DNA from: Erythrobasidium yunnanense
Lineage: Eukaryota; Basidiomycota; Cystobasidiomycetes; Erythrobasidiales; Erythrobasidiaceae
DNA length: 64,000 nucleotides
Assembly: GCA_001600175.1 (NCBI GenBank)
Contig: BCJC01000002.1
Coordinates: 2,453,111 to 2,517,110 of the forward strand
Direction of reading: 5' to 3'
Positions 2,267 to 32,258 of the stretch are shown in pieces. Both the position numbers and the translations under genes were made by a program. The notes below the pieces were generated by a model. The model saw only the letters and a list, made by a program, of their open reading frames with translations, had not been told where the DNA came from and ran no database searches. Position 1 is the stretch's first letter; every line of letters begins with the position of its first letter.

Positions 2267-5200
2267 ATGTCTGGCAACCCACCAAAGCTCAGCTTCGCTA
2301 CTTTGGCCAAGACTGCAGCTGCCGACAGCAATAGAAGCAAATCGCAGCATCGTAGTACCGCAAGCACTAGTCGAGATGCTAATGTATTAGACGAAGACGG
2401 CAATGCCCTTGCTGCCACGTCGAGCAACAAGCTGCCTTCGAAAGGCCCGACAGGGCTAAGTATACGTGGTGCAGCTACAAGCAATGGGGTACATCCAATT
2501 CCAATTTCAGCTTCTCTACCACCCAAGCCAATGGCATCATCATCGTCCTCCTCACAATCGGAAGCGGTCTCGACGGCACCGCAATCTGCTGGACTGTCGA
2601 TCAAGGGTCGCTCCTCCTCTGGAAGTTCGGCGCCAGTATCAGCATCCAGTCAGGCTTCTGCAGAACCTTCTACTAAGACACAGGCGCCCAGTAATGGGGC
2701 TTCGAACGGCAGCGCTCGGCCAGGCTCCATCAACATAATGGGCATGAGTCGTGCATCACAAGCGCCATCTCGCTCGCCGCTCTCGCCTAACAACAAAGGA
2801 AAGAGTAGAGCTGTTGAACCTCTATCAGCGAATACTGAAGAAGGCGAGATGCGGGAAGAGCAGGATGCGCAGCTAGCAGTGCTGCATAATGGCTCAGCGG
2901 ATGCTGCACCTTCAAAGCAAGAGATGCTGTCTGACAAGGAAGAAGGGGAAGAAGAAGGCGCGCTGGAGAACACGCCATACAACGATTACGACAAGCCGGA
3001 ATCACGGCCAGCTGCATCTCCATTCTCGAACGGCCAGAGCCATGCAAATTCGAAAGATCAGCGTTATGCAGATAGTCCGAATGGACGAGACGCTGGGGAC
3101 AGAGGGAGGAACAGATATGACGACGCTGAAGACGATAGGCGCTATGCTGGGCATGGTGGTGGCTCGGAATGGGAGACATCCGAAGGATGGGGTTACAACA
3201 GTCCAGGCCTACGAACAGACCGCTATAGTGATTCCTACGAGAGCTCAAGAGACCGTGACTCGCGTCGACACAGGGACAGCTCGAGAGAACGACGAAGAGA
3301 TAGAGAGGCAGGATACAGCAGATACAGTCCGTCCAGGAGATACGATGACGATGATCGATATGACGACGCCGATAGACGGCGAAGGCGAGAAAGGGACGAT
3401 TATCGAGCCAGCAACCACCGAAAGGAAGACTCCTCGCGATATACAAGCTCCAGTCGTCACGCAAGCAGATACGAGGATAAAGAATACAGATCGCGATACG
3501 ATGCAGACGCACGCGAGTACGAGTCGAGCGCAAAAAGGCGCAGTCGTCGTGACTCTAGGTCATTATCGCCTGCCAGAGAACCGGACTATAAGCGAAGAAG
3601 AGAGGAGAGAACTACCTACCGGGTTAGTTCGAGATACGAGGATGATAGGGCAGATCCGAGGCGAGACTCCGGCCGCTCACCCCGACGTCGGGAAAGAGGG
3701 AGGTCTCGCTCACGTTCGCGTTCGCGCTCACGATCTACTTCTCGCTCGCCAAGAGTACAAGAACGCGCACCCGACTTTCACGATGAGCCTGGAGCACCTG
3801 CACATCCGTCGAGGGAGCTGGCTCCTAGTCTGACAGCTTCGAATACCCCTTCACTTCCGCCCGCACCACAATCAGCTCGATTACCTATCGGCATAGCAGG
3901 CTTACCGCCCAAACCATCCTTCATCCCTTCCTCGTCAGCTATGCAGCCATCGCTCAGCCGGACTGCCGCGCTTCCATCCAAGCCAACCTTACAGAGGTCA
4001 GACTCACAGGCCAAGGTGGTTCAACCGCCTCAGAACCCTGTAGCTACTCCCTTCTTCCTCCCGACACCTAAATCTGAGGCAAGCGTCAAGGAGGAGGTCA
4101 CCGCTAATGGCCAGGGTAGTCAGCAGGACGAGGCTTTCGTAGGAATGCAGATTGACGAGAAAGCATTGTCAGCGAAGGTCAATGTCCAAGCTCGTATGTT
4201 CACTCTGTTTGGGTGCAGCAAGCTTGACGACTATAAGCTGGAAGAAAAGCTGGGCGAAGGTACCTTCGGAGTTGTCCACAAAGCGCGGCGAAAGGCGGGA
4301 ACAGTCAAAGTCCTTAGCGAAGAAGAGAGCAAGCAACGTCGCCTGACTGAGCGTACTGCGCTGCCGAAACCCTACCAGAGCAAGGTGAAAGAAGGAGATG
4401 TCGTAGCTCTGAAAAAGATCGTCATGCACAACGATATGGACGGCGTGCCTATCACAGCTCTTCGTGAGATTAGAATCCTCAAAAGTCTAAATCACCCAAA
4501 TGTCGTGCCAGTCGTAGATATGGCTTTTCAAGAAGGTCAGCTGCTGCGAATCTGGCCTTCTTGCGCAACCGATGCTGACGTCAGTTCCAGGTGACTACCA
4601 ATCTCTAGCTCGCGGGACAGTATACATGGTCTTTCCGTACATGGCGCACGATCTGGCAGGTCTTCTAGAGAACAAGAAAATCCTGACACTGGAACCAAGC
4701 TTGCTTAAGCTATACGCCAAACAACTGCTAGAAGGCACCTCTTATCTGCACAGAAACAAGATCCTACATAGAGACATGAAAGCTGCCAATCTCCTCATTG
4801 ACGATGAAGGCGTTCTGCAAATCGCAGACTTTGGTCTTGCCCGAAGCATCGAAGATCCCAAAGAGGCCAACGGCTCGCGCAGAGTAAGTGGAATGACTTT
4901 AGTCTTGCTATCTGCTTCTGACCCCATCGCACACAGGAGTATACCAATTGCGTCGTGACGAGGTGGTATCGTCCACCTGAGCTGCTTCTAGGCTTACGCG
5001 CATATGGACGCCCCATCGATATGTGGGGAGTCGGCTGTGTCATCGGCGAAATGTTCTTCAGACATCCCATCTTTACGGGCTCTAGCGATCTCGACCAAGT
5101 GGCTAGAATCGTACAAATGTGCGGCACTATTGACGAAAACTCTATGCCAGGGTATATGAATATGCCAGATGCGAAGAACATACAGTTTAGCCACGCCAAT

Positions 5201-9358: not shown

Positions 9359-9537
9359 CGGTAGCGGTTGTCAAAGAAGTGCAACTACCGCATCTCCGCT
9401 CTACCAAAAACTTGCATCGCCGTCCGCTCAGGCCAGCCTCATCGAGAAGCGTACTGTGACACATTCGGCAGCGAGATATCCTCACGTTCATATGACTATC
9501 CTTAGCAGCAAGGTCTAAAAAGCTAGCCAGCTGGAGC

Positions 9538-9541
9538 AAAA
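9538..9541 (-). terminator. RNA polymerase III T-run terminator of tRNA-Cys
   Basis: Four T residues on the minus strand, four bases beyond the discriminator base of the tRNA. This is the minimal fungal Pol III termination signal. Confidence 0.6.
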
Positions 9542-9581
9542 GAAGAGCGGCGAGGGCGGATCGAACGCCCGACCATTGGCA

Positions 9582-9601
9582 AACCCTACAGGAGGATGTA
9601 G
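9582..9601 (-). other. Canonical-position tRNA intron in the anticodon loop
   Basis: 20-nt insert after nucleotide 37, where nuclear tRNA introns normally lie. It contains a small hairpin, CTACA pairing with TGTAG. This one should be a substrate for the normal tRNA splicing endonuclease. Confidence 0.75.
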
Positions 9602-9622
9602 CTGCAAACCAAAGCTCTACCA

Positions 9623-9675
9623 CTATGGAGATACGTTAGAGACTGCGTGAACGGTCGGCGATAAGGTTTATTTAC
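9623..9675 (-). other. 53-nt GT-AG insert within the tRNA-Cys D-loop
   Basis: The insert begins gtaaat, carries ctctaac about 14 nt before its end and finishes ccatag. These are the donor, branch-like and acceptor signals of the protein-gene introns in this window, and its length matches theirs. It lies between AG (9677-9676) and TGGTA (9622-9618). Because AG also occurs at the insert's own 3' end, the exact junction is ambiguous by two bases, but the mature sequence is the same. Confidence 0.75.
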
Positions 9676-9899
9676 CTGAGCTATCTCCGCGCGCTGCAAG
9701 CCACGCTAGTACAAAACATACATAATGCCTTTTTGCGCAAAAAACGCTGTCGAGCCGTCATCTTGCAATGCCTTAAGGGCTTCTCCGCTGTCATGTCTAT
9801 CTAAGCTTCATCGAGAACTTAGCAGTCTACAACAAGCTTGCACTATCTCTCAGTCTCCTGTTCGTTTCCGTTTGTCCAAATTCCGACTCATGACAGGTC

Positions 9900-29574: not shown

Positions 29575-32258
29575 CTATAGGATTGCCTCTACCATGGTGA
29601 TGCCCTCCTTCTCTACCTCTGCGATCAGGAGATCGACCAAGTCACGCTCATACGGAGCGAGTACGCCTGGTGTGTTGATCTTGCCGTCGAGGATGAGCTG
29701 CGTAGCAATACCGCATGGCACACCGACAAGTTTAGCCATGGAAGATGGGCCATCGCCAGTGTGGAAAGGTGCGCCATAGTCCAGAAGGGTGGACGTCTGC
29801 GTGACCTTGCTGCCGTCCTTGTTCTCGATCTCAAACTTGTGCTGCAGCATGACCATGTCCTTCTCTCCCTTCTCGTACTGCATCTTCTCCTCGAGAGTTG
29901 CGCAAAGGGTATCTAGCAGAGATCCGCGAGCGGTTACTGGCGAGTTGGAGAAGAGACCAATCCATCGGAGACCTTGGATGATACGCTGTTCTTCTGAAAC
30001 ATCAGGGAAATCCGCAAGGGATGTGATCTTGGCGATAAGATCCTGCTCGGAGGTGGACTTGGCACCGACGGCCTTTTGCGTGACCTCAGCCTGCGCAGTA
30101 ACTGTTAGCAAAACGTGGAAGACAAGCAAGTAAGAGAATCCTCACCCAGGTTGCGTTCGTGCCAGGCTGCAAGTAGTCCTTCTTCGACTCGTCAAGGAAG
30201 CCAATCTCTACGAGAGCCTTGATGAATGCAGGGAAACCTTGATATCTCAAGGTACCTCGAACGACAGTTCCAGCTTCTGGGATCTTGTACTTCTCGCGGA
30301 AGCTTGTCGAGTCACGGTTGGGGTATGCGACGAAAGCGAATGCAGGGTTGATAAAGTATGGCTTTGCGCATGACATGAGATCCTTGCCTTCAACAGAGAC
30401 CATCTCGCCTGCTTGGTAGAACTTGGCGCTGTTCAGCAGAGCGAGAAGAACACCTCGCGAAGACCAGCTGAACTTGTAGCCGAGAGGGTTGCCAGCTGCG
30501 CTAGGAGCAGGCAGACCACCACAGTAAGAGATGAAGGAGTTGATCTGATGAAGGGATTTGTCAGCGTTCAATCTCACTGTAGAAGAGTTGTGTTCCTCAC
30601 CTTTCCTCCGGCCTTGTGGGTGTCGTCAATGGTCTTCACGGCATACAAGTGATCGATACCAGGGTCAAGGCCAATCTCGTTCATGACAACGATGCCTGCC
30701 TTCTTGACCTCCGGTTCAAGCGCCTTCATGGCGTCAGAGACGTAGGAAGTGGTGACTACGTTCTTCTTGAACTTGATGGCAGACTTGATGACATCGGCGT
30801 GGTAGATGTAAGGAATGAGGGAGATGACGAGATCATGCTGCTCGACAAGCGCGTCCAAAGAAGCTGGGTCTTGGACGTTGACGGCGGCAGTCTGGGCTTC
30901 CCGAGGCAGCAGAGCTGCTAGGGAGTTGGCGTTCTCGATGTTGGAAGACGCTGGAGGCATGCTGCGTTAGTGTAAGGATATGTACGAAATAGCGAAAGTC
31001 TGCTTACCGATTGTAAGGCTGTTCTCTGATCGGCGCAGAACGTACTCGGCACATGGCTGAGCAACGAAACCAGATCCGAGCAGCAGAACCTTCTTGGACT
31101 TGCCAGCAGATGCGTTAGTCGAAGCTGAAGAAGGGTTTGCAGCTGCTACGGCCTTTCCTGCGAAAGATGGGAGTACGAAAGCGGCTTCGTGGACCTTGTT
31201 GTTGTAGTACCTTGTGTTCTCTACAGTTCGCAGAGGCTTCTTGAGGTTGTGCGATGCATCTTTGCTGCATAGAACGTAGCCCATGTTGCCGGAAGGGTAG
31301 GTAGGGATGGAGCACCAGGCGTATTCGACGACTGGGAAAAGCGTCTTCATCGTGCTGAGTACGCTGGTGATGAGGGGAAGATGCAGCCACATGCATTCTC
31401 CCTGGGTAGAAATGTGACCGCCAGGCTTGAGTGCTTCTTGCAGCAGAACGAAGTAGGGCTTCTCGAAAAGCGCATTTGCAGGCCCGACGGGATCTGAAGA
31501 GTCGGTGATGATGACATCGTACATTCCCTTCTTGTCGGCTAACCACTTGAAGCCATCTCCAATGTGCAAGGTCACTCGAGGATCCTGGAAACCTTTATAC
31601 ATGTGAGGTAGGTAGTCCTTGCTGACTCGAGGTACGGCCTCGTCAATGTCGCAAAGGGTCGCGTCCTTGACAGACGGGTGCTTGAGGATCTCACGGAGTA
31701 CTCCTCCATCTCCTCCGCCAATGACCAGGACGGACTCTGGGTTCGGATGCGAGTTGAGCGGAAGGTGAGCAATCATTTCCTGGGCGCGGGGACTCATCAG
31801 AGGAGGATATAGAACGTCTAGATTATGGCGAAGCTTACTTGGTAGGAGAACTCGTCATTCTCGACGCATTGGATAGCACCGTCCAGAACCAAGACGTTTC
31901 CGTGGTCTGTCGACTCGAAGACGAGGACGTCCTACCATTGCACAAAGATCAGATAGATCTATGAAGGATGATGCCGGATCTAACGCACCTGGTACTTGCT
32001 CTGCTCGGTGTGCAGGATCTTTTTGACCCGTAGACCCATAGCTTGACCAGGCCATTGGGGACTCTTCTCAGCGAACCTGTATACATTAGCATTAGATACA
32101 GAGGGTTTGCAACGTCGGGATCAAAGGGAAAATGCTGAAGCTGACCAAAGCTCGCCGTTCGAGTCGGTAGTGATAGCAGGGTGGGAGAGCGACACTACGG
32201 ATACGCCAATCAGTTATAATGCTCATGGATCGTCTCTCATATCGTGCTTTGTCTCACT
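29575..32258 (-). CDS. SPE3-LYS9: Spermidine synthase-saccharopine reductase fusion (SPE3-LYS9)
   Basis: One bifunctional protein. The N-terminal part (about residues 1-290) is spermidine synthase, which moves an aminopropyl group from decarboxylated S-adenosylmethionine to putrescine: [66 protein letters not shown]. The C-terminal part (from about 310) is saccharopine reductase of lysine synthesis: [67 protein letters not shown], ending [20 protein letters not shown]. The two halves lie in one reading frame with a short Ala/Ser linker. The start codon is split by a 63-nt intron: A at 32258, TG at 32194-32193, giving CAACAATGTCG in the mRNA and [17 protein letters not shown]. The fusion is a known basidiomycete trait. 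Confidence 0.93.

Follow-up and report, generated by a model that had tools for sequence, protein, structure and literature searches.

A tRNA-Cys gene with a probable spliceosomal intron in its D-loop, and mRNA-type introns in 19 of 36 decoded tRNA genes of a basidiomycete

The tRNA-Cys(GCA) gene on the minus strand of the analysed stretch of DNA (64,000 nucleotides, here called the window) runs from window position 9690 down to 9546, is 145 bases long and is very probably functional, with two introns of two kinds, a GT-AG intron in the D-loop and an intron of the tRNA-endonuclease type. Introns with the same mRNA-like signals interrupt 19 of the 36 tRNA genes decoded from the genome, and the best explanation, which we hold with high confidence, is that tRNA genes of this fungus contain spliceosomal introns, probably carried by precursors of RNA polymerase III (Pol III) and removed beside the action of the ordinary tRNA endonuclease. 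The following parts of the tRNA-Cys gene and its flanks can be read directly from the sequence:

9719..9724, minus strand: TATA-like TATGTA matching at 5 of 6 positions, a candidate upstream element for Pol III that lies 34 nt before the gene
9676..9690, minus strand: exon 1, mature nucleotides 1-15, 15 nt, GCGGAGATAGCTCAG
9623..9675, minus strand: D-loop intron of spliceosomal type, 53 nt, assigned from its splice signals and the genome-wide set of 29
9602..9622, minus strand: exon 2, mature nucleotides 16-36, 21 nt
9582..9601, minus strand: canonical (tRNA-endonuclease type) intron, 20 nt, ctacatcctcctgtagggtt, not GT..AG
9546..9581, minus strand: exon 3, mature nucleotides 37-72, 36 nt
9538..9541, minus strand: first four-T run downstream, candidate Pol III terminator

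A first-pass annotation had described a 53-nt GT..CTAAC..AG insert that splits the A box in the D-loop of this gene, and the minus-strand sequence bears this out: in genomic order, GCGGAGATAGCTCAG is followed by the insert (gtaaat...ctctaac...ccatag) and then by TGGTAGAGC, and the D arm is restored once the insert is taken out. Exon 1 contains the beginning of the A box (TAGCTCAG, 9683-9676). Within the intron, the 5' site gtaaat occupies 9675-9670, the branch-like CTAAC 9639-9635, with its second A 13 nt before the intron end, and the 3' AG 9624-9623. With its GT/AG ends, branch motif and mRNA-like length and 5' site, the insert has the features of a spliceosomal intron, and its position after mature nucleotide 15 is not that of a canonical nuclear tRNA intron. 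Exon 2 comprises the remaining D arm, the 5' half of the anticodon arm and the anticodon GCA plus the next base, directly after which, at the canonical site after position 37, the 20-nt intron begins. Exon 3 contains the 3' part of the anticodon arm, the T arm with an uninterrupted B box core (GTTCGATCC, 9566-9558), the 3' acceptor strand and T73; A5/G68 is the single mismatch read in the acceptor stem. The rest of the cloverleaf had been taken to be intact, and T73, GCA and the B box are indeed present, but the 20-nt intron had been overlooked. Once both introns are removed, ARAGORN reports tRNA-Cys(gca) of 72 nt with a score of 115.9 and with cloverleaf, GCA and T73 in place; with introns allowed it names the genomic stretch tRNA-Thr, and default ARAGORN and Rfam gave no match in the window or around the gene. 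About 140 nt downstream lies a 15-nt stretch, TGGTAGAGCGGAGAT (window 9392-9406, minus strand), which resembles a fusion of the 3' half of this tRNA's D arm to its 5' start and is either a chance occurrence or a rearranged fragment.

The likeness of the D-loop insert to surrounding mRNA introns, already remarked on from the letters alone, was upheld by six mRNA introns in two genes of the window, which were anchored by protein homology in that their removal lets the proteins align to solved relatives across the junctions:

31932..31988, minus strand: intron of the Spe3-Lys9 fusion gene, 57 nt, homology-anchored
31780..31838, minus strand: intron of the Spe3-Lys9 fusion gene, 59 nt, homology-anchored
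30951..31007, minus strand: intron of the Spe3-Lys9 fusion gene, 57 nt, homology-anchored
30545..30600, minus strand: intron of the Spe3-Lys9 fusion gene, 56 nt, homology-anchored
4536..4590, plus strand: intron of the CDK9-like kinase gene, 55 nt, homology-anchored
4884..4936, plus strand: intron of the CDK9-like kinase gene, 53 nt, homology-anchored

All six are GT..AG introns of 53-59 nt with a CTRAY motif (6/6), and their 5' sites are similar to those of the tRNA introns, the mean 5' site scores being 3.8 for tRNA introns, 4.0 for mRNA introns and 1.4 for decoys. When 5' site, branch motif and YAG were combined into one splice-signal score, with weights of our own choosing, the tRNA introns reached a mean of 7.0 and the anchored mRNA introns 8.0, against 2.3 for 3026 GT..AG stretches of the window serving as decoys. 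The tRNA-Cys D-loop intron scores 7, which was equalled by 78 of the 3026 decoys of like length. A heuristic set of 16 mRNA introns was dropped as a yardstick, since it had been chosen partly by the branch motif and was circular for that feature. At window 30545-31988 (minus strand), spermidine synthase is fused to saccharopine dehydrogenase; this fusion is typical of basidiomycetes and therefore marks the genome as that of a basidiomycete.

The basidiomycete genome comprises 20.9 Mb on 10 contigs. The Rfam tRNA model gave 18 matches, 17 of them above the cut-off, with 63 of 397 candidates scored. The match to Lys-CTT (L018) is incomplete, with GT..AG between acceptor base 5 and the remainder, that to Arg-CCT (L019) is incomplete with GC..AG within the D-loop, and that to Lys-TTT (L008) has GT..AG inside the anticodon. 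Searches with patterns for a T arm plus T-run yielded lists of about 100 of 171 matches, of 97 matches (complete) and of 60 matches, and D-arm patterns yielded lists of 12 matches (complete) and of about 100 of 148. Forty regions and four further ones were retrieved, and tRNA genes were decoded by eye and by script. The first 40 regions contained 12 distinct tRNA genes (L051, L052, L056, L058, L059, L060, L063, L065, L066, L068, L073 and L082) and, besides these, L061 as an identical copy of L060, the undecoded L057 and 26 regions taken to hold no tRNA; one of the four further regions was decoded as a tRNA gene (L127). Altogether 36 tRNA genes were decoded in this incomplete catalogue, 19 with and 17 without mRNA-type introns; the proportion is not a genome-wide figure, because the patterns used recovered no genes for several tRNAs, among them those for Pro, Asn, elongator Met, Gly-GCC and Ser-GCT. 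These missing isotypes may be more heavily split or may have been overlooked by the patterns. The only genes found for initiator Met, Phe and Tyr carry mRNA-type introns, as do 4 of the 5 Leu isoacceptors found, whereas the tRNAs for Asp, Glu, Gly-TCC and Ala-TGC come from genes free of introns.

Several loci around this catalogue deserve mention in their own right. L057 (C4:1080892-1081519) has a tRNA-like T arm, an acceptor 3' end and a T-run, but trials of 1097 spliced variants did not yield a decoded 5' part. The initiator tRNA-Met gene L092 (C1, around 1847324) combines a 58-nt intron at the canonical position, which is unusual for an initiator tRNA, with a GT-AG intron in the variable loop. 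The unspliced form of the tRNA-Lys(TTT) gene L008 (C2:626475-626613) is named tRNA-Gln by ARAGORN, and L118 (C2:633185), 6.7 kb from this full gene, is a 5' Lys-TTT fragment that includes the intron and diverges just past it. L060 and L061 (C8:146430- / 149479+) form an inverted Leu-AAG pair about 3 kb apart, identical over the compared stretch including the intron, and L015 and L016 (C6:207813- / 217161+) form an inverted Ser-CGA pair with the same tRNA sequence and different downstream T-runs. Glu-CTC-like T arms near contig ends (C6:1963542-, C9:217+; G000) are perhaps subtelomeric copies. L061, L015 (the copy of L016), L118 and the Glu-like T arms near two contig ends stand outside the count of 36.

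In the 19 genes, 29 mRNA-type introns were observed at non-canonical sites, distributed over the mature tRNA as follows:

After mature nucleotide 5 (acceptor stem): two Lys-CTT genes
Sites 13 to 24 (D-loop and its edge): Arg-CCG.2, Leu-TAG, Cys, Ser-TGA, Leu-TAA (twice); further, Ile-AAT.2, Arg-CCT, Gln-CTG, Phe, Leu-CAA
Sites 25 to 28: Lys-CTT.2, Thr-CGT, Val-AAC, Leu-TAG, Ile-AAT.2
Site 35: Lys-TTT, splitting the anticodon after its second base
Sites 45 to 51: initiator Met, Arg-CCG.2, Arg-TCT, Phe
T-stem/T-loop border: Ile-AAT.2 and four Leu genes
Within the T-loop: Tyr

These introns are 51-69 nt long (median 55), and 28 have GT-AG ends and one GC-AG ends, AG thus being present in 29/29, although the GT..AG rule helped to fix the borders of most of them and the borders are independent of it only in pairs of paralogues. 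A CTRAY motif 6-40 nt before the 3' end is found in 22 introns and absent from the other 7, against a mean of 4.3 expected from shuffled interiors; a count of 22 was reached in none of 2000 shuffles, the highest of which gave 11. Canonical anticodon introns, with borders set by eye, are present in 27 of the 36 decoded genes, always one base 3' of the anticodon, and none of the 27 is GT..AG (length 7-58 nt). A query with the tRNA-Cys gene and its intron matched only itself genome-wide at E <= 0.001, so near-identical copies were not seen and, for the Cys intron at least, an introner-like repeated intron was discarded. Similarity within the set of Leu T-loop introns, and within the pair of Lys-CTT acceptor introns, was at best marginal against shuffles, and no homology is claimed for either.

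Comparison of intron-bearing with intron-free paralogues fixes the ends of six introns independently of GT-AG. Arg-CCG.2 (L068) has two introns with no counterpart in Arg-CCG.1 (L012), the mature parts being identical at 69/72 positions; Ile-AAT.2 (L052) has three with none in Ile-AAT.1 (L051; 73/75 identical); and of the two in Lys-CTT.2 (L065), one is missing from Lys-CTT.1 (L018; 72/73 identical). All six introns delimited in this way can be read as GT..AG, five unambiguously and one (Ile, T-loop border) within a three-base slip. At the site after nucleotide 5 that the Lys-CTT genes have in common, their introns match in 37 of 62 aligned columns, which was equalled by 26 of 500 shuffles; since the exons are near-identical and the introns hardly match above shuffles, selection keeps the exons and not the intron sequence.

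Removal of the introns also decides how the genes are called. The spliced forms of all 19 intron-bearing genes were named by ARAGORN as the expected tRNA, with scores of 106.8-121.5, whereas this finder missed or misnamed the split genomic forms, 14 being missed, 4 given another identity and 1 given the right anticodon with a wrong intron. From the 17 genes without mRNA-type introns, 16 entered the genomic test and 16/16 were called, the anticodon intron leading to a wrong anticodon in 5. The spliced forms of 15 of those 16 were called at first and that of Leu-CAG only after the border of its anticodon intron had been moved, and tRNA-His joined the spliced-form test together with this re-test.

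It is hard to reconcile these observations with a reading of the tRNA-Cys gene as a pseudogene or as a tRNA copy that a chance insertion has disrupted. We consider this reading very improbable even though insertions in the D and T arms of eukaryotic tRNA genes are, according to PMC4090602, usually supposed to mark pseudogenes and the acceptor stem has one mismatch. The first-pass annotation had proposed that an uninterrupted tRNA-Cys family elsewhere would expose the gene as a pseudogene. No second tRNA-Cys was seen when the genome was queried with the mature tRNA-Cys or when the pattern lists of 97 and 12 rows were inspected by eye, a test of limited power because a mature tRNA-Ile query of the same kind recovered only 1 of two known copies. 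Against a pseudogene also speak the recurrence of the same signals in 19 genes, including the only ones found for three isotypes and most Leu isoacceptors, and the Lys-CTT copies, which keep their exons while their introns diverge. Equally improbable, in our judgement, are non-canonical tRNA introns cut by the tRNA endonuclease at a bulge-helix-bulge, as in Crenarchaeota, nucleomorphs and Cyanidioschyzon. The insert positions do resemble the archaeal sites 25/26, 45/46 and 53/54 given in PMC4090602, and the 27 canonical introns imply that the endonuclease is active in this fungus. However, when a bulge-helix-bulge (a 4-bp helix between two 3-nt bulges) was sought, three or more of the four possible pairs of the central helix, with both orientations considered, were found in 4 of 29 inserts, two of these four being testable in one orientation only, as compared with 29% of random placements, while 11 of the 27 canonical introns reached this pairing. 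Moreover, cutting by an endonuclease would not call for GT..AG ends, a branch motif and lengths like those of mRNA introns. Between an endonuclease of unusual specificity and the spliceosome, the two routes considered from the start, the genome-wide pattern of the 29 introns thus favours removal by the spliceosome.

Which polymerase makes the transcripts is less certain than the involvement of the spliceosome. Spliceosomes normally act on RNA polymerase II (Pol II) transcripts, and the introns might be spliceosomal with the transcripts coming from Pol II or from read-through of a neighbour, which would supply the link to the spliceosome; the first-pass annotation had leaned this way, and the split A box of Cys and split T-loop of Tyr agree with it. 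We regard this origin as unlikely, though considerably less so than a pseudogene or the endonuclease, and favour Pol III with external help, because of TATA elements, T-runs and the TATA-dependent tRNA transcription reviewed in PMC3978253. TATAWW starts 18-65 nt upstream of 15 of the 36 tRNA genes (with only 33 nt of upstream scope for Arg-TCT and an N in the Ser-CGA stretch) as compared with 2.1% of random stretches; the 15 divide into only 6 of 19 intron-bearing genes, a point against our explanation, and 9 of 17 other genes, so the enrichment extends to tRNA genes without mRNA-type introns, and by eye such elements are seen at 5S and U6 as well. Downstream, 35 of 36 genes have a T-run within 30 nt. 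Among the 19 intron-bearing genes, 18 are followed by a four-T run within 30 nt. This count is biased, many genes having been found by a pattern demanding a T-run, yet such a run also follows 6 of the 7 that came to light without the pattern, as compared with 4.8% of random stretches. In addition, fission yeast splices its U6, which is itself transcribed by Pol III (PMC10484740). The review PMC3978253 refers to work in which TATA boxes upstream of tRNA genes are important for transcription in some plants and fungi, and to yeast tRNA genes with TATA elements that are transcribed in vitro independently of TFIIIC. Where an intron sits at the T-stem/T-loop border, its final G recreates the GTTC of the B box, so that TFIIIC may still find it, and in tRNA-Tyr the T-loop is truly split. 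Four-T runs occur inside 7 of the 29 introns (6.6 in shuffles) and might stop Pol III; five-T runs occur in none, with 2.1 expected and too few to judge, and avoidance of Pol III terminators within introns therefore gave no clear result. The doubt raised earlier about transcription of the tRNA-Cys gene stays, softened by the common upstream TATA elements and downstream T-runs.

What the sequence itself shows is the anatomy of the gene, the splice signals, their recurrence across the genome and the differences between paralogues; from these features we infer the polymerase and the order of maturation steps for a functional tRNA-Cys with spliceosomal removal of the D-loop intron. The precursor would most likely be made by Pol III, aided by the upstream TATA-like element because the A box is split, and would end at the T-run. 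The spliceosome would then take out the D-loop intron, after which the D arm and the cloverleaf could form, and tRNA endonuclease and ligase would finally remove the 20-nt second intron. The same route would apply to 19 of the 36 decoded genes, so tRNA supply in this fungus would depend on the spliceosome, and the cell probably needs its mRNA-splicing machinery to make tRNAs. Taken further, and with somewhat less confidence than the presence of spliceosomal introns itself, it seems likely that a large share of the tRNAs (Cys, initiator Met, Phe, Tyr and most Leu) can be made only via the spliceosome acting on Pol III transcripts, with A box, T-loop and, in Lys-TTT, even the anticodon split, that translation consequently hangs on pre-mRNA splicing and that the promoters for Pol III rely in part on sequences outside the genes.

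Teaching treats the introns of tRNAs and those of mRNAs as two systems, each with its own machinery. If the explanation is true, spliceosome-made tRNAs would join the two systems, and spliceosomal introns would prove able to enter genes for small structured RNAs far outside U6 and U3 and to stay in them. The intron-free and intron-bearing paralogues of one genome would also offer a place to test intron gain, and the split genes one to test how Pol III works with split internal promoters. The first-pass annotation knew of no fungal precedent; no report of spliceosomal introns in tRNA genes was found in the open-licence literature, judged mostly by title or abstract start, which is no proof of novelty, and the accessible sections of PMC11782384 and PMC6461891 contain nothing on the subject.

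Among other small RNAs of this genome, the U6 gene L050 (C3:382073-382137) scores 23.5 bits against an Rfam cut-off of 44 and is cut by mRNA-type introns between ACAGAGAAG and ATTAGCATGGCCCCTGCACAAG and between ATTAGCATGGCCCCTGCACAAG and GATGACAC, its exons having been placed with the U6 consensus. At least two of its introns fall within the most conserved part of U6, and a third is possible, with an ambiguous 3' exon. Two 5S rRNA genes are uninterrupted, and the best U2 match, of 28.3 bits, lies below the cut-off.

U6 introns occur in basidiomycete yeasts, together with spliceosomal introns in their U1 and U5 genes, and like the introns described here those of U6 are short GT-AG introns in a small structured Pol III RNA. 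The same likeness holds for the fission yeast U6 intron, which PMC10484740 describes as of mRNA type and thought to stem from reverse splicing; unlike in U6, the host here is tRNA, many genes and sites are affected and endonuclease introns are present in the same gene. PMC5832005 names U3 and U6 as the only small structured RNAs in which frequent interruption by an intron has been known so far. Fungal U3 snoRNA introns, as presented there, are likewise of mRNA type in a small structured RNA and broadly distributed in Basidiomycota, but occupy few sites of one RNA, unlike the tRNA introns. Canonical nuclear tRNA introns after position 37, such as the 20-nt intron of tRNA-Cys, differ from the 29 in ends, length range and their fixed place beside the anticodon. 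In Crenarchaeota, nucleomorphs and Cyanidioschyzon merolae, according to PMC4090602 and PMC3978253, introns similarly lie in the D arm, at 25/26 and 45/46 and in the T arm, with several per gene. The majority of tRNA genes in C. merolae are disrupted, and a role of TATA-like elements in transcribing them is under discussion. In these systems, however, the introns have bulge-helix-bulge or related motifs and are removed by the tRNA endonuclease or in an unknown way, whereas those of this fungus combine GT-AG ends, a branch motif and mRNA-intron length with no support for a bulge-helix-bulge.
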